Shown here one piece after another: positions 4,023-21,780 of a stretch of 23,379 nucleotides of DNA (its first letter is position 1; each line of letters opens with the position of its first letter). A program made the translations under genes and the position numbers. Source of the DNA: Larix sibirica (taxonomy: Eukaryota; Streptophyta; Pinopsida; Pinales; Pinaceae); the NCBI GenBank assembly GCA_004151065.3, contig NWUY0300049548.1, positions 43,451-66,829 of the forward strand, read 5' to 3'. A model generated the notes under the pieces. It made no database searches, had not been told where the DNA came from, and worked only from the letters and a program-made list of their open reading frames with translations.

Positions 4023-6074
4023 TGATGCAGACAGAATAGGGTCAGGCCCAAAATGCCGAAAAATAAACTGACAGACCATACACTCATCAATTTCAAAGAG
4101 AGAATTACAGAGACAGAATAAAACTTAACTTCAGATCTGCTCAAGTGCAGACACACACTCTGTTCCAGCATTATGAATCAAATAACAGCAGCATTACATC
4201 CTCAGGGCAACTCAGGCCTGATTACACTCAGATAACTATTGGCACGCAGGCCACTTAATTTGTGCTCAGCCAATTCGCAATGCTCTCTGGTAAGCACAGC
4301 TCTTCTGAGTGTATTTGCAATGCTCCTTTGAGCATCTCAACAATTTTTTGTTGCTCTTTCTGAGTGCTCACAGCGCTGCCAAAACTCTCTGACAGAGACT
4401 GTTTAACAGAAGCCCTCCCTGCCTCCTCTTCTGAAGCTCTCTCCCTCTTCTCCTGCACTCTACAATTCCTCTTCAAATACACTCATACATCAGTGAAGGG
4501 AACACAGGCCTGTTACCCACTCAATCCTAACAGAACTTAGTGTAAACTCCGAGTTAAAATCGGGAGTGGGTACCCTTTTCAAACTGCATGCATCTATGTT
4601 CGGACTCTTAGAATCCCCGAGACATGTGGCAGGCTTTACAGATGCTCTGCATCATACTCCTCTTGTTATACAAATTCTGAACCTCCTGGTTCAAAGTTAT
4701 TGTGCTTTGTTTTCCTCTACTTTCTCCACCTATCAAACCATGACTCACTCTCGATAGTGTCCCATTCAAGCACTCCAAATTTCCACATCCAATAGTTCAA
4801 TCTCTCTATAGGTCGTTCATCTCCATCGGTTAATCTCTCCGTAGATTGTTCATCTCCATCGGTCAATCTCAAGCTATCTATCAAGTACATGAAGTACCAT
4901 CACATATGCCTTTGCCTCCAAAACTCTGTTCACCTCAACAACCAAACTCCTTTGTATGAAGACAAATCTCGTCATAACTAGGCAAAGTTTTTCCTCTTTT
5001 GCTACGGCAATCTTCTCCACGGTGAATCCTTGTTCAACCATAGCCATGTTGTGAATGACATATCCTTCTTCCATATTCAAGAGATACATCATGTTTCCCG
5101 TTTCCCACTTCTCCTAGGCATTTGGTTTTCGCAATCTGCAAATCAGCCTTATATTCAGTTGTTTATCCTCTGTAATCTCCTCCTCCGAGAAGTCTTTAGC
5201 TGCAAGCTTCTTGCCTTCTACAGTACTCTTCACAAAGGTTTTCACAACCTTTTCTCGGATGCAATTTGCGGTATTATTCTTATCGTTGCATTTGTATACA
5301 TGCATGTAAGTTTTTATGCACTCTTCCTCGTTCTTTTTCTTATGACTTGGATCTCTGCTTTCTCTTATGCCTTTTGTTACACTCTTTGATTAGTTTCCTA
5401 CTCGCTTCTATCTCTTCCATGATCCACTCTTTCTCTTCTTGGCTCAGCCACTTTTCCTTCACCATTTTTAACCCACATAAGAAAACACACAACACTTATG
5501 CTAGCAATCCTGGTCCTCAGTATAGCTTCCTCCAGCCAACTCAATATCGTCAAACACTTACATGCACCTCAGTGCTTTCTAATGCTCCTCAAGGCAGCGC
5601 AGGGGTTACTAAAGCAAATGAACTCTTTCTCTACAACTTAACTTTAGCTTTCCAATCTCTCATTGTTTTCTCAACAGCTCACTCTCTTAAAGTTGTTCAC
5701 AATACGGCTTTCCATAGCCAAGGCCCAATACATTAGTCACTGGTAACAGTAATGCACCTTTGTGCAATTTAGTGCTCCTCGAACACACTTAGTTCTTATG
5801 TGGAACTAACTTTTCTATTTCAGCATCTAAGACTCCCGCTGTAAACCAAAATGATGCAGAGGCCTCACTCTACAGATGTAGATCTGGACTGACTTCAAGG
5901 AACACAGATCTCTGGCTGCTACAGGTACAAACCTGCACAGATATGCAAACAAATACTTGCAGACTGATACAGACACCTCAGGCTGCTACACGAATAAAGC
6001 TGCACAGATCTTTAAACAAACACTTTGACTGCATTGAGGAATTAAATGAGGCAGGTTGGAGGTTATCTGCATCA
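4023..6074 (+). mobile_element. Candidate long terminal repeat (about 2.05 kb)
   Basis: The segment starts TGATGCAGA (4023-4031) and ends TCTGCATCA (6066-6074), a perfect 9-base inverted terminal repeat with the TG...CA ends of an LTR. It is followed after three T's by TGGTATCAGAG (6078-6088), which matches the 3' end of initiator tRNA-Met and is the usual primer-binding site of plant LTR retrotransposons. The LTR would therefore be a 5' LTR on the plus strand. A second TGATGCAGA at 5852 allows a shorter 223-bp alternative (5852-6074). No second LTR copy is present in the window, so the left boundary is inferred only from the terminal repeat. Confidence 0.5.
4797..4871 (+). repeat. 33-bp tandem repeat, about 2.3 copies
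   Basis: Two adjacent 33-bp units (4797-4829 and 4830-4862), both ending gttcatctccatcgg, are followed by the first nine bases of a third. It lies inside the candidate LTR. Confidence 0.8.
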
Positions 6075-6077
6075 TTT

Positions 6078-6088
6078 TGGTATCAGAG
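6078..6088 (+). other. Primer-binding site, initiator tRNA-Met type
   Basis: TGGTATCAGAG matches the canonical plant retrotransposon primer-binding site for initiator tRNA-Met. It lies three bases after the TCTGCATCA end of the candidate LTR, which is the expected arrangement. The following 110 bp show no recognisable gag. Confidence 0.65.
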
Positions 6089-6199
6089 AAAACCTGATAA
6101 TGGCCCAGAGGGTAATCCATTTGAACTGGGGAAGAAAAACTGGGAGGACTGTTTTGTAGGATTTTCCTTTGAGTTAATGTAATAAAAGAAAACAGATTA

Positions 6200-6218
6200 T
6201 TGGAGGTTATCTGCATCA
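6200..6218 (+). repeat. Second copy of the LTR end (19 bp)
   Basis: The 19 bases ttggaggttatctgcatca that end the candidate LTR at 6056-6074 are repeated exactly at 6200-6218. The copies flank the primer-binding site and about 125 bp of sequence. Just outside, cttgg (4018-4022) and ctagg (6219-6223) differ at one base, which would be compatible with a decayed 5-bp target-site duplication around a collapsed element. That last reading is weak. Confidence 0.6.
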
Positions 6219-6223
6219 CTAGG

Positions 6224-7344
6224 TGTCTGTATCATTGTTGTATCATTGTTGTGTTGAAACAGTGCATCCCTGAGGGGATCAAATCCTATCCAAAGCTGGG
6301 ACTTGAGGCACAAAGCTTCTGATCATGGAAACTAACTATTTTTTAGTTTTGGTCAAGTTAGTAATATCTGATTTAACGAAAGATTTCCAATGGAGGATAT
6401 GAAAAATAAGTCTGTTGGCCTGTAGTTGGATGGTAATGAGGAATGCTTACTATAAAGATACAGAAGCTAAGCTCACATCTTATAGGCATCTTACCTGCCC
6501 AAATAAGCAATATCTTCAAATAAGGGATATGAGAAACAGATTTAGTACATTAATAGAGATGACACAATGAAGAACTTAGTCATGACTCATTCATGGTAGG
6601 GAATTTCATTTGTGAAACAAGGTTGAAGAATGGGCTAAGCAAAAGGACACTTTCTTGTCACTATACTGGGAATATTGACAGTCTCTTTATTATGTAATGT
6701 ACTTTAGGTGGTGAATTTGGTTGGTAATAATTTATAAATATTGTGCATATTATAGATTATAGTATATGTATTTGTATATTATGTCAATTTCATAATATAA
6801 AGGCAATCCCAATCCACTTTCATGCTGTGTTTTTCTTCAGGTCGAGGAAAAACATCTTTATTATGGTAACAATTTGAGCTGTGTTACTATGGATCAACCA
6901 GTTATAAAAGCCTAAATTTTATAATAACCTAATAAGAGTTTAAATATAATAATAATCTTATAATATATAAATACATATTATAAAATAATAACATAATATA
7001 ATATTATACAATTAATAATAATAAGTTAAATTCAGTGGGTTAGAGCCACACTAAGAGGTAATATATAATTTTATAACGTATATTATCACATTAATATGTG
7101 TGACAATACGGACATATAAGAGATCGGACAGACCGGGTAGAGGTTTCAAAGACGCGGGTCATTATGGTTAATTGTACTATAATGAATTTAAATTATATTA
7201 TAATAAATTTATACTTATTAAAAAAGAAGCCAGCAGACACTGCAATTCTTTGATGGGATACCCTTCAAATTGAAGGAGGTAATTTTCTCACTTTTGGACG
7301 AATTATGAACATAGAAATAACCCTCTAATTGGTCTGACCATCTC
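6224..7344. other. AT-rich repeat-like DNA without a recognisable gene
   Basis: From 6224 to about 6700 the sequence is mixed, may be eroded retrotransposon interior, and gives no protein I can name. Between about 6720 and 7210 it becomes extremely AT-rich, with many runs of ataat. No functional feature can be supported. Confidence 0.45.
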
Positions 7345-7560
7345 TACAAACAATTTTTATATATTTTCCCTTCAAACAGAAAGATAACTTGTATCTTGAA
7401 AGTGTTGTTCCTACTTCCTTTGAAAGGACTACTGAATGAAGATACCTCCATCATTGTACAAACAGTTTGCATCTATTTTGCCTTCAAATAGAGCGATAAC
7501 TTGTACCTTGAAAATGTTGTTCCTTTGAAAGGACTACTGGATGAAGATGCCTCATCATTG
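7345..7560 (-). repeat. Tandem duplication of about 110 bp
   Basis: Copy 1 is 7345-7456 (112 bp) and copy 2 is 7457-7560 (104 bp). They share long stretches such as ttgttcc, tttgaaaggactactg and atgaagat. They differ by scattered substitutions and a deletion of about 8 bp. On the minus strand the unit can be read as SSPFKG followed by F-x-RYKL, faintly like the N-terminus of a Ty1/copia gag. This fits the minus-strand primer-binding site at 7771-7781, but the protein reading is weak. Confidence 0.7.
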
Positions 7561-7770
7561 TTGGGAGTCAACAAACGATTTGAGAGAAAAAATTCCTCAT
7601 CTCATACCTTTATCACTTTAGGGCTCCCTAGAGCAAGAATGTGATATGGTCTCCTCCTCCATTGTCTTTCTTTTCAGATTCCACCATGTGAGGTTGCTTG
7701 TTTAAGAGCTCAGTTAACTTGAGACTTAAGACCGTATACCTTGAACTTGTGGGGAATAGATAACAGATTG

Positions 7771-7781
7771 CTGTGATACCA
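7771..7781 (-). other. Minus-strand primer-binding site relic
   Basis: Read on the minus strand this is TGGTATCACAG, one base away from the canonical TGGTATCAGAG. On that strand it is preceded by ...TATATCA plus one base, as expected at the end of an LTR. It marks an LTR retrotransposon relic oriented opposite to the one at 4023-6088. Confidence 0.5.
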
Positions 7782-7782
7782 T

Positions 7783-8625
7783 TGATATAAATTGGATTGA
7801 GAATGGAATGAAAGAAAAGAACATAGAGTTACAATGAAAACCAAATCCATTATTTAAATAATAGTAAAAAAATGTCATGATGGTTAGATGATGGTAGCAA
7901 TCTATGACAAGATATATCTTTGATATGCTCATTCATAAAAATTCCTTAACAAAGGAGAAAAACTCTTTTTATTACAATATGAAGCAAAAATTGTATAGTG
8001 AAAAAAACATAAAGTAGAAACCCTAAACTTGGGCATTGAGGTGGTGAAACAAAGGTCGGCCTTGGGAAGATGAGGTGGTGAACAACTTGCAGGGACTATA
8101 AATCCCACTCACATTCTACTAGGTGCAACCCACGTTTAATTTAGTTTTGACATCTCTTTGATTTGTTGAAAGGTAGTTTTAGCATGTTAATTTTTCTCAT
8201 GAATTATTCATGGTTTTATCATTGTTGATTTTGATTAAATTGCTTAAATTTTAAAAAATTACATTGAAAATGAATGAAATCATTCANTAAACTTGGGCAT
8301 TGAGGTGGTGAAACAAAGGTAAGCCTTGGGAAGATGAGGTGGTGAACAACTTGCAGGGACCATAAATCCCACTCACGATGCAACCCACGTTTAATTTAGT
8401 TTTGACATCTCTTTGCTTTGTTGATGTTAATTTTTCTCATGAATTATTCATGGTTTTATCATTGTCGATTTTTATTAAATTGCTTAAATTTAAAAAAATT
8501 ACATTGAAAATGAATGAAATCATTCATTTCAAGTATTTGTAGCTTTTAGTTCTTTCCTTTTCAACAAGTTTAGTTTTCACATCAGTTATGCACACAATGA
8601 GGGACACAAATCATCTTTCATATCA
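7783..8625 (-). mobile_element. Candidate minus-strand LTR
   Basis: The segment begins TGATAT at 7783 and ends ATATCA at 8620-8625, giving 6-base inverted ends, and abuts the minus-strand primer-binding site. The length of about 840 bp is ordinary for an LTR. No partner LTR is visible, 6-base ends can occur by chance, and the segment contains a duplication and an N, so its outer boundary is uncertain. Confidence 0.3.
8024..8527. repeat. Tandem duplication of about 263 bp with an N at the joint
   Basis: Copy 1 (8024-8286) and copy 2 (8288-8527) both start taaacttgggcattgaggtg and end near aatgaatgaaatcattca. Copy 2 lacks two short segments (for example ttctactagg and aaaggtagttttagca). The single undetermined base at 8287 lies exactly between them, so an assembly or sequencing problem is possible. 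The copies differ at several sites, which argues against a simple duplicated read. Confidence 0.85.
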
Positions 8626-9264
8626 GAGTATGCTCTTCACCTTGCCCTCATAATGGATTGGGTAATTCTAACCCTTTACACTCATAGTAGATAACAGACT
8701 TCATTCATGCCACCTAACCAAGACTTATTAAAACCAAACAATTAAATCCTCCCACAAGGATCATAAACAATTTATAGTCTAGGTTAGGTATGTCGTGTTA
8801 GGAATCCAAATAAGACACCATGGTCGTTTCTCATTGAAACATAGATGTTGTTCTAAGGAGCTTGAAAGGTGTGGTTTATAAATACAAGGTAGCACCATCC
8901 TTTTAATGTGAACGTTGAGGTCAACTCAACAAATTTGCATGAGTCTCCCAACTCAATCAAATTCATGTGTTGCCTAATGGGTGAGGCCAATAACCCCTTT
9001 TCCACAACCCATTAAGAGACATTGCTGTAACCAATCATAGGTTTATCTCCATGTGATTGTGAGAGAACCTAAGGCAGTTAGTGGTTACCCCATTTTATTT
9101 CACCACCTTGGGTGTGTCACTATAACAACAAATTCATACCTTCACTTGCCTTATTTAGTGGATTTTATCATTGCAATTTGAGAGATTTAAAAGGTCCTTT
9201 CAATCACTACAGTTTACTTGTGATTCGTTAACTTGTTTTAGGTGTATTCTTCTTTCTTCTACGA
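8626..9264. other. No gene seen; possible LTR-like stretch
   Basis: No coding sequence is recognised. A TATA-like TTATAAATA lies at about 8876-8884. Because it is upstream of the gypsy gag relic at 9408, this stretch could include its LTR or leader, but no TG...CA ends or primer-binding site were found. Confidence 0.3.
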
Positions 9265-9407
9265 ATGAAAACCTATCACCAAAAAAAATATTTTATCAGC
9301 ATTAGAAACACACTTATAAACCACTTGTTGCACCACCTACGCTTATGTTCCCTTTGGAGGCATCACATTGGCAACTCATTCATACAACACACTACTTTGC
9401 TTAGCAT

Positions 9408-9720
9408 TTATATCACCATGGAAGGAACCCAAATCATGCCATTCACGACTAATCTGAATCTTATGAACTTAACATGTCTCATTAATGACCCTATACAACA
9501 TGATGCCACATGGCCAGCCATGCCTACCAAGTTTCCCTCAAATATTCCTAAGTTCAAATGTCGAGCTAGAGAGGGCCCATCAAACCCCATCATGGCATTT
9601 CACTTGTGGTGTTCCTCCAATAGAATTATATAATATTATGCTTGGTTGAGGTTGTTTCAATGAACCCTCACCCGCGATTGCCACCAAATGGTGCACTAGT
9701 AGATTGATTGTAATAGAAAG
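9408..9720 (+). pseudogene. Ty3/gypsy retrotransposon gag relic
   Basis: The open part (9408-9632) contains LINDPIQHDATWPAMPTKFP, then IPKFKCRAREGP and FHLWCSSN. This follows the order of a gag N-terminal region found in many plant Ty3/gypsy elements (NDP...WP..PTK.P.DIPKFEGK.GEDP...H...FHLWCSSN). After a TAA stop the frame continues as WLRLFQ-stop-TLT, matching the next family block (LRLFQRTLTG.A..WY). Gag normally forms the particle that packages element RNA. Here the reading frame is broken by several stops, the typical EGK.GED segment is altered, and no protease, reverse transcriptase or integrase follows. It is a non-functional fragment. Confidence 0.65.
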
Positions 9721-9946
9721 AAATGATAGTTTAGATTTGCATGAATTGCTACATCAAGATGATATATTGTGAGTTTTAAACAATCTCCCTTTTCTTGGTT
9801 CTGAACTGTGCTTAGAGTTATATACTCAAGCCTCTTAATGTTTTCAAAATTATGGACAATAAACTTAATCCTAGCAACAATCTATTGAAGCTAGTGGAAG
9901 AGGAGAACATAATGGACTCCATAAGTTCTATTTCAAAGACACCAAT

Positions 9947-16670: not shown

Positions 16671-17690
16671 GACTAATAGAGGAAGAGTGGATGTGTAGTG
16701 GAGAGGTACATGGAAACATGGAGGTGTTTCAAATGATGTGACTTGAGCACTAAGAGCTATCCAAGATAGATTGGAATCCATAGAAACAACTCAGAGGAGA
16801 GGAATTGAAACTAAAGCTCATGGTGCGAGTGATGAAGAATTAGAAGATGAGAACCCATAAGAAGAATATGAGGTAATGGAATCCCTAAAAGAGGGAATTA
16901 TTAATTCCTTGACATATTTGAGATGAAAAACAAAGACGGAGACACCTACTTACTTAGGAAGTGTGAACCTAGAAGAGCTAATTGACTAGGTTAGGGACAT
17001 GGATAAGTTATTTGTCATGGAGCAAATTGAGGATCTTTAAAGAGTGAAGATGGCTTGCATGAATTTAAAAAGACATGCATCCTTATGGTGATATACCATG
17101 TAACTAGAAAGACAAAGGAAAGGCAAGGACAAAATCAAGACTTGGGATAGAATGGTGGTGAAACTTAAAGGTAAATGTTTTCCTATTAACTATACTTTAA
17201 ATTTGTATAGGAAGCTACATAATATTAGGAAGAAAGAAATGACACTTAAGGAGTATGAAAAAGAGTTTTATAGGTTTTCTATTGGTGATGAAGGATATGA
17301 AATTGTGGCTAGATACATTAATGAGTTGAGATATGAAATACAAGATGAATTGAGTATTATGAGGATTAGAATAGTGGGAAAAGAATACTAGCTTTCCTAA
17401 GTATAGCATAATTTGTCCAATAAGAATTCAGGTGCTAGGGGGGAAGAAACAATTAGAGGAAAGGTTAGAAATATGTCTAGGAAAGGATAGAGTAGTAGAG
17501 CTAAAGGAGAAGAAGGTATTAGTGTAAATGCTCCAACCCGAGAATTTATAAAGAGTAATGAATTTTTTAAAGGAAGAGGGACTTATTGAGGAAACACAAA
17601 CCTTAGGGGTATAGGAGCTAGAAGATCATCAGTCATTTTTTATAAGTGTCAAACACGAGGACACAAGGCCTATGAATGTCATGACCTAAA
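16671..17690 (+). pseudogene. Ty3/gypsy gag pseudogene with CCHC knuckle relic
   Basis: One plus-strand frame from ATG 16671 reads through most of a plant Ty3/gypsy gag, interrupted by roughly ten stop codons. Recognisable blocks are a Glu-rich N-terminal part, LEELID-stop-VRDMDKLF (normally a Trp at the stop), KRHASLW-stop, KGKDKIKTWDRMVVKLKGKC, the open stretch 17152-17391 with LHNIRKKEMTLKEYEKEFYR and ARYINELRYEIQDE, and a basic linker. Near 17641-17682 lies YKCQTRGHKAYEC, a CX4HX4C knuckle whose first Cys position is Phe. Gag would package the element's RNA. Many stops occupy Trp or Gln positions, consistent with C-to-T decay. Protease and polymerase are absent because the sequence switches abruptly at about 17690 to the minus-strand LINE. 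Confidence 0.85.
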
Positions 17691-18216
17691 AATTACCCTG
17701 TTCCAAAGGTCGTTTTGTTTTTGTTTTAAACTTCAAATCTGCATGTTGAATTTCTAATGTATCTTGATTGACTATAACATCTTCAAATAAGGGCGCATCC
17801 TCTTGCAGCCCGACTTTGTCATCCACAAGAGGAGAGGGGTCATGTATTTTCCAGCTTTTGGATTTAGAAGCCAGTCCCTTTTTCTTTTTTGGTAGGCTAC
17901 GAGCATGTGGGCAAGAATCCTGAAGGTGACTAGTTTGATGACAAGATTTGCATCGGAAAGCAGTATTTTCATAGTCCAAGCTTTGAGACCACTGAAAATT
18001 TCCAATCTTTAACATCATTCTATTTGGAATGCCTTTTTTGAGATCAATCTCCACACATATGCATGCATATGTGAACAACCCTTTCTCAATTATGTCCCTA
18101 TCAATCTTGATAAATTTGCCCAGGGAATTTCCTATATCTTGTAAAGCCACATGGTGCCAGAACGGAAGTGGCAGATTTGGAAGCTGAACCCAAACCGACA
18201 TTTTTGCAACCACCAT
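17686..18216 (-). pseudogene. LINE ORF1, C-terminal DUF4283 and CCHC knuckle
   Basis: This 176-codon open stretch carries VWVQLPNLPLPFWHH (residues 8-22), IGNSLGKFIKID (28-39) and ACICVEIDLKKG (51-62), all typical of DUF4283. A complete CX2CX4HX4C knuckle follows (CKSCHQTSHLQDSC, 89-102), then a Lys-rich segment (KKKKGL near 110) and an acidic tail. ORF1 proteins of this type bind element RNA and form the ribonucleoprotein needed for transposition. The open frame here is only the downstream half: in the same frame the protein continues upstream through two stop codons (at about 18284-18286 and 18260-18262) into the next piece, so the ORF is a pseudogene despite its open C-terminal part. Confidence 0.85.
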
Positions 18217-18466
18217 AGAATTAGGTTCAAAGTTTGGGAACCAAGGAGTGATGAAAATTCATGCTCTACCCCAAAACCAAGGACCCTATTCAAGGGCATT
18301 CCTATAATCCTCCTTGGTATTAAAGCGAACTACAAAGAAACCCTTGGAACACAGCAAAATTTCGCATTCCCTTGTCCAGGTAAAGTAGATCCATTGATGT
18401 AGATCTTCTGAGCGTGGCCAAAATCCATTAAATTTGCAAATTATTGCGTAAGATTCCAAGGAGAGG
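18217..18466 (-). pseudogene. LINE ORF1, DUF4283 N-terminal piece downstream of the SINE
   Basis: The frame reads YAIICKFNGFWPRSEDLHQW, then a WTRECEILLCSKGFFVVRF block and NTKEDYRNALE, followed by stop, GPWFWGRA, stop, and TPWFPNFEPNS before the 18216 ORF. This is the standard order of DUF4283 (CKF.G..P....L..W, G.F.V.F....D...AL..GPW). Upstream it ends at the target-site duplication of the inserted SINE, and the preceding ORF1 residues resume at 18849 in a frame that joins correctly once the SINE and one duplication copy are disregarded. Confidence 0.8.
18450..18466. repeat. Target-site duplication, left copy (17 bp)
   Basis: aagattccaaggagagg is identical to 18832-18848. The two copies exactly bracket the tRNA-like and poly(A) features of the SINE. 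They interrupt the codons LSLES of the LINE ORF1, which is the expected outcome of target-primed insertion. Confidence 0.9.
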
Positions 18467-18831
18467 CCCACGAGGGTCGAATAGACGGTGTATGGGTGTA
18501 ATGTTAAGGCACTCTTCACGTAAGGTCACTGGTTCGAAACTCCAAAGATACTAGCCTTACCAAAAAAAGAATGAATGAATGAATAACATATGCCATATGA
18601 CATGTTTGTCAATTGAGTTTAGCCCGAGTGGTTGAGTTATCGGATTGTTATTTGCTCCACCGAGGTTCAAGTCCCGTCAGTGACACTTGCTCTTAAGTGA
18701 GCCGTTGAGCTCTTCATGATCTCTACTAGCCAATTAATCGCCCTTCCTATGTCTCCGGACGTCGGGGAGGTTAACGTGGACATAGCGGGGCACCGAAAAA
18801 AGAGGGTGCTCCGTGAACCACACGAAAAAAA
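18467..18831 (+). mobile_element. SINE with two tRNA-derived heads
   Basis: This element of about 365 bp lies between perfect 17-bp target-site duplications and ends in a run of A's (18825-18831), so it was inserted by target-primed reverse transcription. The first tRNA-like head has box A-like tatgggtgtaatgttaaggc (about 18491-18510) and box B-like ggttcgaaactcc (18531-18543). It is followed by an A-rich, (gaat)n tail-like tract at about 18560-18582. The second head has box A tagcccgagtgg (18620-18631) and a perfect box B ggttcaagtcc (18664-18674), as in plant Au-like SINEs, followed by a 3' body of about 150 bp. These boxes are internal RNA polymerase III promoters. SINEs encode no protein and borrow LINE enzymes. 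Confidence 0.85.
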
Positions 18832-18848
18832 AAGATTCCAAGGAGAGG
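18832..18848. repeat. Target-site duplication, right copy (17 bp)
   Basis: This is the exact second copy of aagattccaaggagagg, directly after the poly(A) end of the SINE. Because the tail ends in A's, the first one or two A's of the duplication are ambiguous, so its true length is 15-17 bp. Confidence 0.9.
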
Positions 18849-19018
18849 AAGAAATCCTTAATCTCGGGATTTTTTACCTCCAAAGTTGGGATCTCTTCTG
18901 ATTTTTCTACAATAAATGGGATGGGCATGTTTAGAGTTTGCATTGAATCCAGAGGAGCCTTGGATCAAGCAGCATCCTTGTAAGACTTGGCGAAGGAAGA
19001 ACCCCCAATCCCCACAGT
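18849..19018 (-). pseudogene. LINE ORF1 linker between ubiquitin module and DUF4283
   Basis: In the frame that continues from the Gly-Gly at 19019-19024, the minus strand reads TVGIGGSSFAKSYKDAA, one stop (TGA), then SKAPLDSMQTLNMPIPFIVE and PEIKDFFLSLES, meeting the SINE at its target-site duplication. Ser-Phe-Ala-rich segments followed by a short hydrophobic start are usual at the N-terminus of plant LINE ORF1 proteins. The frame differs by one base from that of the ubiquitin module, the shift lying in an A8/T8 homopolymer at 19041-19048. Confidence 0.65.
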
Positions 19019-19247
19019 GCCCCCATACAACTATGTCGATAAAAAAAATGGTCGAGTCTCGGGAGATCTTATATTTCTTCAACGGGGAAAAGTCTTGAAG
19101 TTGTTTTCCTTCATGAATAAGGCATTGCATGGTTGAAGGAATACCTAAGCGTTGTTCCAACATAAGCTTAGTGGCCTCGACAAAATACCCATTAGAAACC
19201 CACACCAGCATCAACTTCCATGAGAGTGTTTTGATGAAAATATGAAT
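19019..19247 (-). pseudogene. Ubiquitin-like module fused upstream of LINE ORF1
   Basis: The minus strand encodes IHIFIKTLSWK, then LGIPSTMQCLIHEGKQLQD and SPLKKYKISRDSTI. It aligns without gaps to ubiquitin. Allowing one extra T in the T8 run (19041-19048), all 76 ubiquitin positions are covered and the module ends LYGG where ubiquitin has LRGG. By my count about 29 of 76 residues are identical. K6, K11, K27, K48, I44, G47, L73, G75 and G76 are kept; M1 is Ile (ATT for ATG), K29 is Met, K33 and K63 are Arg, and R72 is a stop. Free ubiquitin is a protein tag; natural fusions are cleaved after Gly76 by deubiquitinases. Here the copy is disabled by the shift and stop. It is far too diverged to be a recent insertion of a host ubiquitin gene, so the fusion is probably old within this LINE lineage. 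Confidence 0.75.
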
Positions 19248-19680
19248 AAGATCTGAGGGAACAGCCCTTGTATTTCCAGAGATAGACCATGTGGTAGCAA
19301 GTTTTGTTAACTTCTTCAGCTTCCCTGTGGATCTGACACCATCTAGCTGACAGTGGAGAAAAGGAGAAGGGAGGCACCTAGGGATGCATCTTAGACCAAA
19401 ATCCAGCCAAGAAACCTTGAATTGAATTGAGTCTGCCAAGATCTGGGCCTTTAAGCTCACAAAGAAACACAAAACTCCAAGATATTGCCATTTACAGATG
19501 GTAGAGCCCCAAAAATCCTTCGATGCTCTTCATAAAAAATGATCTACCCAGATAAGACGTGAGGACACCACCGAGGTCGAGGAAAAACTAGCCAGACAGG
19601 CGATCCACACTGACTCCTTTGTTGGAAGAACAATGGCGGAAACTACTAAACCCTCGACCATTTTTCACCCTACAAATTGT
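19248..19680 (-). other. Probable 5' leader of the LINE
   Basis: Upstream of the ubiquitin module on the minus strand the sequence is GC-richer than its surroundings and open from 19472, but the translated residues (for example TWSISGNTRAVPSD) match nothing I recognise. It probably represents the 5' untranslated region and internal promoter of the LINE. The drop to AT-rich sequence at about 19680 is taken as the 5' end. Confidence 0.4.
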
Positions 19681-20165
19681 TTTGCATATTCCTTTGTATC
19701 TTTTAATTGTCAAGTGATCATTTGATTGTTACCGAAGTTGTATTGATAGTTGAAGAAATTTATGTGTCCACATATGTTTATGTTGAGTTGTTATTTATTA
19801 TTTATTAGGCAATGGAGAGGAGTTTCTTTTGTCACTAGAATTGATGATTGAGGCAATTTGAATTTTTTTTTTTTTGCTTCATAAGTTACAGTAGCATTTT
19901 TTGCAATTTTTAGATTGTTTGGCTTATCATGCATGACATCTATCATGTGGCCATTCTCTATGCCGACAATAGGAAACACACTATTTAGTCTCTTACAAAC
20001 ACCCATAGTGGTTCTCCAAATGCACATTGACTTGAATGATTGCCAATAAACCATGGCCCACCAACGGATTAAAGAAAAAACAAGTTGATGTGATATTGTC
20101 ATATAGCAAGGCACCCATTTCCAAAGGCAATAGAAAAAGGTGATACCTATCGACATTCATCAATC
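19681..20165. other. No recognisable gene; T13 tract
   Basis: The sequence is AT-rich. A run of 13 T's (19863-19875), read on the minus strand, could be the A-tail of a retroposon but nothing recognisable precedes it there. The 121-codon minus-strand open frame at 19791-20156 shows no known domain and its hydrophobic start is low in similarity to anything I know. Confidence 0.4.
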
Positions 20166-20789: not shown

Positions 20790-21780
20790 TTGATACCGTT
20801 GAGGGCTCACTTGTTGTGGAGGGGATAGAAAACCTTGTTATGTTAATTCAAGAGTCTTGTTCGCTTAATGTTCAAACCCCAAGCTAATTGATGTACCCAA
20901 GGAACCTCTTGAACCTAACCTTCCTTACAACTCTGACCTGATTTTTGGGGTTTATGAGAAGTCGATTACAAAGCAATGGAGGTTTTAATTATTCTTCTCT
21001 TGACCATTTACTATTACAAGGGGAGGATATAATCCCTAAATCTCAGTCAAAAGCAAGGAAGAGGTGAAAGCTGGTGCCAAGTCATGGTGGTGGGGTTTCC
21101 TTAGTTGTTGGTGAGAATTTCATGTTTGACCAGATACTAGATCTATCTAGTGCAACCCTCATTAGTAAATTTATGGGGAATCGTGTCTCAATGGAGATGC
21201 TTAATGCTTGGATCTTACAGTACCGATAACTATTCCTAGGTTATGGGTCAGTTTTCCACTCACTATCTCAAGGTGGTGTGGCTTCATTTTTAGAACCAAG
21301 GAGAATGCTTGCCTTGTTCTAAAAGGAAACTAGTTATTGGGTTGCTCTTTCTTGCACTCAAGCCTTGGCATCCATTATTTGATGCAAGGTCTAAGATTCT
21401 TGAGCAATCCCCAATATGGGTGAAACTGTCAGGATTATCTATGGAGTTTTGGTCAGTCCATACCATCTCAACGATCAGTGGTCTTCTAGGGAAGATCATC
21501 TTGGTTGATGACGACTTTATGGAGAGTTCGAAGGGGTTGATAGTTAGGGTTCTTGTTGAGTTAGATTTTCGATGAGAGCTTTATGAATTCCTAGACTTGG
21601 TTATCAGTGACAGAGGTATTCACAGTTCTTGGACTACAACATATTTCATTTTGTTGTGAGATGCCACGAATAAAATCATGTTCTGACAGACTGCACTAAT
21701 GTGTTTCAACATAAAGTGTGGGGTCAAAATCGAATTGTAGAAGGTTATGATAAAAAGTGGGCTTCCGTTGAAGGAGCCTT
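20790..21780 (+). pseudogene. Second LINE ORF1 relic (DUF4283 and CCHC)
   Basis: Across shifting plus-strand frames one reads an N-terminal part (QGEDIIPKSQSKARKR, HGGGVSLVVGENFMFDQ), then DLSSATLISKFMGNRVSMEM, LNAWI, ENACLVLKGN and, in the open stretch 21309-21575, LALKPWHPLFDARS, SPIWVKLSGLSMEFW, ISGLLGKIILVDDDF and VRVLVELDFR. These follow DUF4283 in order. About 21646-21700 gives RCHE-stop-NHVLTDC, a CX4HX4C knuckle with its first Cys lost. Several frameshifts and stops make it non-functional. It is oriented opposite to the LINE at 17686-19680 and differs clearly in sequence. No ubiquitin-like module is seen upstream, and no ORF2 follows. Confidence 0.8.

Follow-up and report, generated by a model that had tools for sequence, protein, structure and literature searches.

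Ubiquitin is among the most invariant of eukaryotic proteins, and in the ubiquitin-ribosomal protein fusions (eL40, eS31) as well as in polyubiquitin it is placed N-terminally to its passenger and ends with RLRGG. Ubiquitin-like domains that are not cut usually lose the C-terminal Gly-Gly. The ORF1p of mammalian LINEs is of the coiled-coil type. In the pestivirus strain CP Rit, host UCHs cut ubiquitin from NS3, and an S27a fragment is present upstream of the ubiquitin (PMC8310069). HAL1 elements are described as non-autonomous L1 derivatives of several origins that code for ORF1p alone (PMC5753468). For plants, the review by Ohshima reports that a 3' hairpin with an adjacent, conserved 5'-CGAG-3' is common to some L1s and SINEs (PMC3747384). 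In our searches of the open-licence literature, judged by titles and abstract openings, we did not find a fusion of ubiquitin with a LINE described.

The window analyzed here, i.e. the whole stretch of 23,379 nucleotides from Larix sibirica, contains a decayed copy of such a fusion, in which a ubiquitin-like domain (UBL) precedes a gag-like ORF1 with DUF4283 and CCHC motifs. While the ubiquitin fusion as such is certain, we favor with a probability of roughly 55% the more far-reaching interpretation that the copy represents a family of likely trans-mobilized half-LINEs, whose protein is predicted to be cut by deubiquitinases after Gly-Gly. The UBL of the window copy (19019..19244, minus strand) is recognized by Pfam, where the minus-strand ORF 19529-18858 matches PF00240 ubiquitin, covering positions 1-66 of the 72-position model (37.7 bits against a curated cut-off of 25.4, E 1.8e-9), and it shares 25 of 69 residues (36%, counted on the printed alignment) with ubiquitin chains of the PDB. 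When all six frames of the window were cut into stop-to-stop pieces and those with 15 or more residues were scanned with phmmer, the UBL was the sole ubiquitin-like piece (E 3.4e-9; the next piece had an E-value of 4.3), its matching residues 96-163 being encoded at 19244-19041. The frame shifts close to where the UBL ends, so that the Gly-Gly position, which ends at 19019, is in the neighboring frame, and the C-terminal tail of this copy's own UBL is decayed. By its profile match and its beta-grasp fold, the domain belongs to the ubiquitin superfamily. The initial annotation, which had recognized a real and full ubiquitin domain from the letters alone, is thus confirmed by exactly the profile search that it had proposed, as well as by the PDB ubiquitins, and its boundaries of 19019-19247 were accurate.

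The element around this domain covers 17701..19707 of the minus strand, as delimited by blastn and local alignment to the genomic copy L010, in comparison with which about 380 bp of the 3' end are missing. Upstream of the UBL there is an N-terminal extension or 5' region that is common to the copies L009 and L010 (19262..19707, minus strand; blastn 68% to L010, local alignment to 19707). On the other side, the post-Gly-Gly linker and the start of the DUF4283 part follow in another frame (18857..19030, minus strand; tblastn match to residues 235-293 of the database protein P0004, 52% identity), and thereafter the DUF4283 domain and the CCHC knuckle of the gag-like ORF1 (17701..18462, minus strand; tblastn identities of 61% to P0003 and 55% to P0004). 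The same-strand ORF1 that had been claimed to adjoin the UBL is therefore indeed present: Pfam identifies DUF4283 (PF14111) in the minus-strand ORF 17686-18258 with an E-value of 1.2e-12, and a knuckle of the type C-x2-C-x4-H-x4-C can be read from the translation at 17952-17911. A SINE-like insert of 366 bp that is foreign to the element (18467..18832, no strand assigned) is enclosed by perfect 16-bp repeats (18451-18466 and 18833-18848), and as it is situated between UBL and DUF4283, the window copy has no continuous open frame across both, unlike its relatives among the database proteins, in which both domains are in one open frame. By eye, the insert contains tRNA-promoter-like stretches; an Rfam scan of the window and an ARAGORN scan of the insert's stretch gave no match. 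Where the truncated element stops on its 3' side, a gypsy-like gag piece follows at a distance of some 310 bp (17104-17391, plus strand; Retrotrans_gag, E 6.4e-5, with 23.5 bits just under the curated cut-off of 24.1), and its CCHC stretch, again by eye, reaches the junction near 17700. A second DUF4283 ORF piece without a ubiquitin-like segment is found on the opposite strand (21294-21575, plus strand, E 1.5e-13), and no ORF2 match was detected in the window.

Is the fusion a family trait? A search of 5.8 billion proteins, for which only the DUF4283 part of the window copy served as query, returned 62 proteins, 50 of which have a precomputed PF00240 match, and a profile built from 14 of these 62 gave 205 matches, 120 of them listed. 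Among the 125 family proteins fetched from both searches, a first UBL profile detected the domain completely in 67, partially in 15 and not in 43 cases, and a second profile scored above 20 bits in 84. Many of the family proteins without UBL begin inside or after the UBL position; P0059-P0062 look like longer proteins without it. When at least 150 residues precede DUF4283, the UBL is found in 64 of 65 proteins, the exception being P0062, with a cut-off that favors UBL-bearing proteins, as the UBL itself occupies that space. As a control, relatives of the UBL-less ORF1 of a LINE from the same genome (L054) were examined, and none of the 120 listed of 230 contains a UBL; in the 104 of these 120 that start with Met, the region upstream of DUF4283 has a median length of 93 and a maximum of 142 residues. 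All 28 UBL-bearing proteins in a tree of 34 hand-picked tips, the other six being UBL-less, group together in a single clade (support 0.62), in agreement with ubiquitin having been captured once. The 63 UBL-bearing proteins in our Pfam scan match both families, for which they had been selected, and P0031 has two ubiquitin domains arranged in tandem ahead of DUF4283, one partial and one complete. Copies were not found in viral and prokaryote contig collections. The sole named relatives among the matches listed are gene models, four from Pinus taeda and one from Taxus, and from these five, in which no UBL was found, a gymnosperm host range is plausible.

In the 618 Mb of the window's own genome, the window UBL matches 23 places including itself (E up to 1e-3). 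Twenty of the 22 others were fetched (L009-L028), and DUF4283 follows on the same strand at 19 of them, the exception being L028, a decayed polyubiquitin tandem near canonical ubiquitin with three matches around 1539-2183. The initial view of the UBL as a stable part of the element thus holds for 50 of 62 proteins and for 19 of 20 loci of the own genome, and the profile and PDB matches, together with the repeated occurrence in relatives, rule out a chance neighborhood or a misread domain. Genome searches with P0004 and P0051, which also capture UBL-less ORF1s, gave at least 70 scored matches of 7661 and at least 85 of 7265 first-look candidates, respectively. Most scored matches contain stops, and this one genome contains copies of each of several diverged subfamilies. 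It is our uncounted impression that TAG is commoner than TGA and TAA among the stops of decayed copies, and a decay of CAG through C-to-T changes at methylated positions would be expected to produce an excess of TAG.

The initial annotation had suggested that the UBL is a part of a LINE, with ORF2 to be expected behind ORF1; if such a LINE is autonomous, ORF1-only copies would be deletion products. The ORF1 with DUF4283 and CCHC indeed agrees with autonomous LINEs of the plant L1 clade, and its homology to the ORF1 of LINEs that do have an ORF2 (roughly 28-44% identity) favors this possibility, but an ORF2 (EN, RT) was not found in the same element. Of the genomic loci, 15 extend for 3 kb or more in the downstream direction; 13 of these gave no sense ORF2 match, and at the remaining two, L016 and L027, ORF2 is present only behind a second DUF4283 ORF. 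Directly after the ubiquitin-ORF1, ORF2 thus occurs at 0/15 loci; the 17.7 kb downstream of the window copy contain none, no ORF2 domain was detected in the 6.5 kb downstream of L010, and none of the genome loci examined combines ubiquitin-ORF1 and ORF2 in one element. In L016 (oriented, about 6083-8949) and L027 (about 4259-9900), the second DUF4283 ORF and the ORF2 behind it are on the same strand as the ubiquitin-ORF1, which agrees with an autonomous LINE; the layout may also reflect a composite element, nested insertions or mere adjacency. These two loci might hint at a LINE with three ORFs, but such an element is unsupported by L034, where the 2.4 kb upstream of ORF1 are without UBL, and likewise by L054 and L055. 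An RNase H-like (RVT_3) remnant detected by Pfam about 75 bp behind the ubiquitin-ORF1 of L023 (L023:3410-3673), and at this locus only, is a possible trace of a deleted ORF2, and it follows that UBL and ORF2 may formerly have been combined in a LINE. The database contigs of 79 of the 84 UBL-bearing proteins point in both directions, as in 12 of them (5 to 62 kb) the sequence outside the ORF exceeds 3 kb and could accommodate an ORF2, but less than 3 kb remains in 67 and less than 1 kb in 58. Moreover, the copies L009, L010 and L011 end in a defined tail only 147-179 bp past the ORF1 match, and three LINEs of this genome that possess both ORFs (L054, L055, L034+L032) are devoid of ubiquitin. 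We therefore consider an autonomous UBL-bearing LINE to be quite improbable. Of what had been expected initially from searches of genome and proteins, the many relatives with UBL and DUF4283 in one frame were found, whereas the ORF2 directly behind them was not; the best copies look like insertions of ORF1 alone. Flanking direct repeats exceed 95% of the null at four of nine tested loci (L009, L010, L021, L029), are just under this value at L011 and fail at four, and the insertions that are thereby implied at L009, L010, L021 and L029 have sizes of 1.89-2.03 kb. At these four loci, an ORF1 protein alone is encoded in an insertion bounded by target-site duplications (TSDs), as it would be expected for a HAL1-like element.

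The 3' tail of the family, TTTTTTCGAGGAAAAAA, is the point where the homology of L009 and L010 stops. With a probe made from these two copies, its alignment exceeded the maximum of 20 shuffles at 10 of 19 ubiquitin-ORF1 loci, namely L009, L010, L011, L018, L020 (marginally), L021, L023, L024, L026 and L029, the last of which had been fetched by the tail itself, and L017 and L022 were left out of the test; at the other nine loci, including the window copy, the tail was undetectable. Genome-wide, the pattern of the tail was found at 13 sites, and the reversed pattern at none. Five of the 13 were fetched (L029-L033) and a sixth is L011. L029 is a ubiquitin-ORF1 copy, and at all three further loci scanned (L031, L032, L033) zf-RVT, RVT_1 or RVT_3 domains are encoded upstream of the tail, meaning that the family has, as expected of a HAL1-like element, a 3' end in common with LINE ORF2 domains of its genome. 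Upstream of L032, L034 codes for a DUF4283 ORF1 whose best matches have 28-44% identity, and even with the HMMER filters off, a UBL was not detected therein. L054 combines a UBL-less ORF1 with an ORF2 that has EN, RT, zf-RVT and RNase H according to Pfam, and L055 a UBL-less ORF1 with ORF2 matches; the tail was looked for in both and not found. These plant L1-clade LINEs thus resemble the family in their homologous ORF1 and, in case of L032, in the same 3' tail, but they differ by the presence of ORF2 and the absence of ubiquitin. Could the copies nevertheless be processed pseudogenes of a host gene, i.e. of a domesticated ORF1 with ubiquitin that is no mobile element itself? Contigs that have the size of transcripts, about 2.3 kb, and contain intact ORFs, together with the stops in most scored genomic matches, would agree with this idea, but a host gene does not readily account for several diverged subfamilies with copies in one genome, nor for a tail that is shared with LINEs instead of a plain poly(A), and we regard it as very unlikely. 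The insertions of about 2 kb with TSDs, the tail shared with LINEs and the lack of an adjoining ORF2 therefore suggest that the family is likely an ORF1-only, HAL1-like half-LINE. As judged from the shared tail sequence, it is likely mobilized in trans by L1-type LINEs, which would recognize this tail and thereby copy the RNA of the element.

In comparison to the HAL1 elements of mammals, the similarity consists in the sole ORF1-like protein and in the TSDs of the best copies, and the differences are the plant-type DUF4283/CCHC ORF1, the ubiquitin and the defined, CGAG-containing shared tail. The stringent-type pairs of plant L1s and SINEs likewise share a 3' end with CGAG, but their partners are monocot SINEs, whereas the non-autonomous partner in our case codes for a gag-like protein. 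This likeness of the tails is suggestive only.

What may be the role of the ubiquitin? The core of the domain has drifted far, with identities to ubiquitin of 25-45% (mean 0.37 among 31 non-redundant UBLs), a mean pairwise identity of 34% and a mean majority frequency of 0.48, but its end is retained, as R72 is found in 29, R74 in 29, G75 in 30 and G76 in all of the 31 sequences. In the set of 67 proteins, G75 is present in 66 and G76 in 67, and the residue thereafter is A/S/C/M/T in 64, mostly Ala or Ser, and never Pro, so that the database proteins have both the kept Gly-Gly and the cleavable next residue of a cleavable UBL. In the predicted model of P0003, the UBL has pLDDT values of 93-97, and the tail and linker of about 50; the best Foldseek match of this model is ubiquitin (TMt 0.91). 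The median dN/dS of the UBL is 0.39 (43 pairs). The initial idea of a divergence outside host constraint thus applies to the core, but neither to the Gly-Gly tail nor to a domain with a dN/dS near 0.39. It is hardly credible that ubiquitin was carried along once as a neutral passenger without any role: the low identity of the core would permit this, but the UBL is kept across a diverse clade together with its Gly-Gly tail, and the dN/dS argues against it. The best-supported mechanism, on the grounds of these sequence features, is a predicted cut after Gly-Gly by host deubiquitinases, which would leave the DUF4283/CCHC protein with a newly created, defined N-terminus and free it as a chaperone that binds RNA. 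Alternatively, the UBL may never be cut and may remain attached to the ORF1 protein, where it would serve for docking, solubility or the tuning of degradation, for example in RNP assembly or by binding of ubiquitin receptors. A stable fusion under purifying selection fits any useful domain, and some copies of the window's own genome are easier to explain in this way: among 25 copies whose GG can be read, 20 have it intact, other residues frequently take the place of R72 and R74, and in eight copies (L043, L044, L046-L050, L053) position 72 is occupied by Gly and the GG position is followed by Asp, Glu, Asn or Tyr, which is unexpected under a strict RLRGG-cleavage model. However, the Gly-Gly is the best-kept part of the domain (G76 in 31 of 31), and the receptor-patch positions 68 and 70 are unconserved, which makes a permanently attached UBL unlikely.

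The predicted cleavage would also remove everything upstream of the UBL, and this upstream part is highly variable. In 58 proteins that start with Met, the extension has 13-393 residues with a median of 212, and no majority residues are found in it across subfamilies. The N-termini of host proteins can be recognized in six proteins. Five of them were found by Pfam among 63 scanned proteins, which are a glutathione transferase (P0015), an NAD-dependent epimerase/reductase-like protein (P0001), a DEAD helicase (P0023), an F-box-like protein (P0077) and an At5g48480-like glyoxalase (P0057), and the sixth is ribosomal protein uS19/RPS15 in P0067 (E about 1e-29), the only N-terminus that was compared with the PDB, having been picked by eye. 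These N-termini could be products of template switches, insertions into genes or assembly chimeras. Provided that they are real, a Gly-Gly cut would render them harmless to the ORF1 protein, and the discarding of the upstream part would render copies expressible behind changing, sometimes host-derived, 5' ends. It is thus possible, although we propose this only tentatively and at somewhat less than even odds, that ubiquitin was captured once as a "cut-here" adapter, which would allow the family to swap its 5' ends for pieces of host genes and to use their promoters and start codons, with the ORF1 protein still being correct.

The ubiquitin-ribosomal protein fusions and polyubiquitin share with this arrangement the position of ubiquitin ahead of a passenger, but the core is here only 25-45% identical, and the 13-393-residue extension precedes the UBL. 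The cytopathogenic pestiviruses are similar in being mobile RNA parasites with a captured ubiquitin as processing signal for host enzymes, albeit with the cleavage being a prediction in our case, and they differ in that ubiquitin occurs in single viral strains, whereas it is a diverged, family-wide module in the plant-type retroelement. The pestivirus strain is a precedent and shows that such a logic works in nature. For elements of this kind, our searches of open papers, judged by titles and abstract openings, did not find the predicted release of a gag-like protein by deubiquitinases described. If true, a retrotransposon would possess a ubiquitin-fusion expression system of natural origin, carried long enough for the core to drop to about 37% identity while the cleavage tail has been held, which would explain how a functional gag-like protein is obtained despite changing, host-derived 5' ends. 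The family may thus be a transposon counterpart of the pestivirus ubiquitin trick, and it permits testing how ORF1-only half-LINEs persist and what their protein does.
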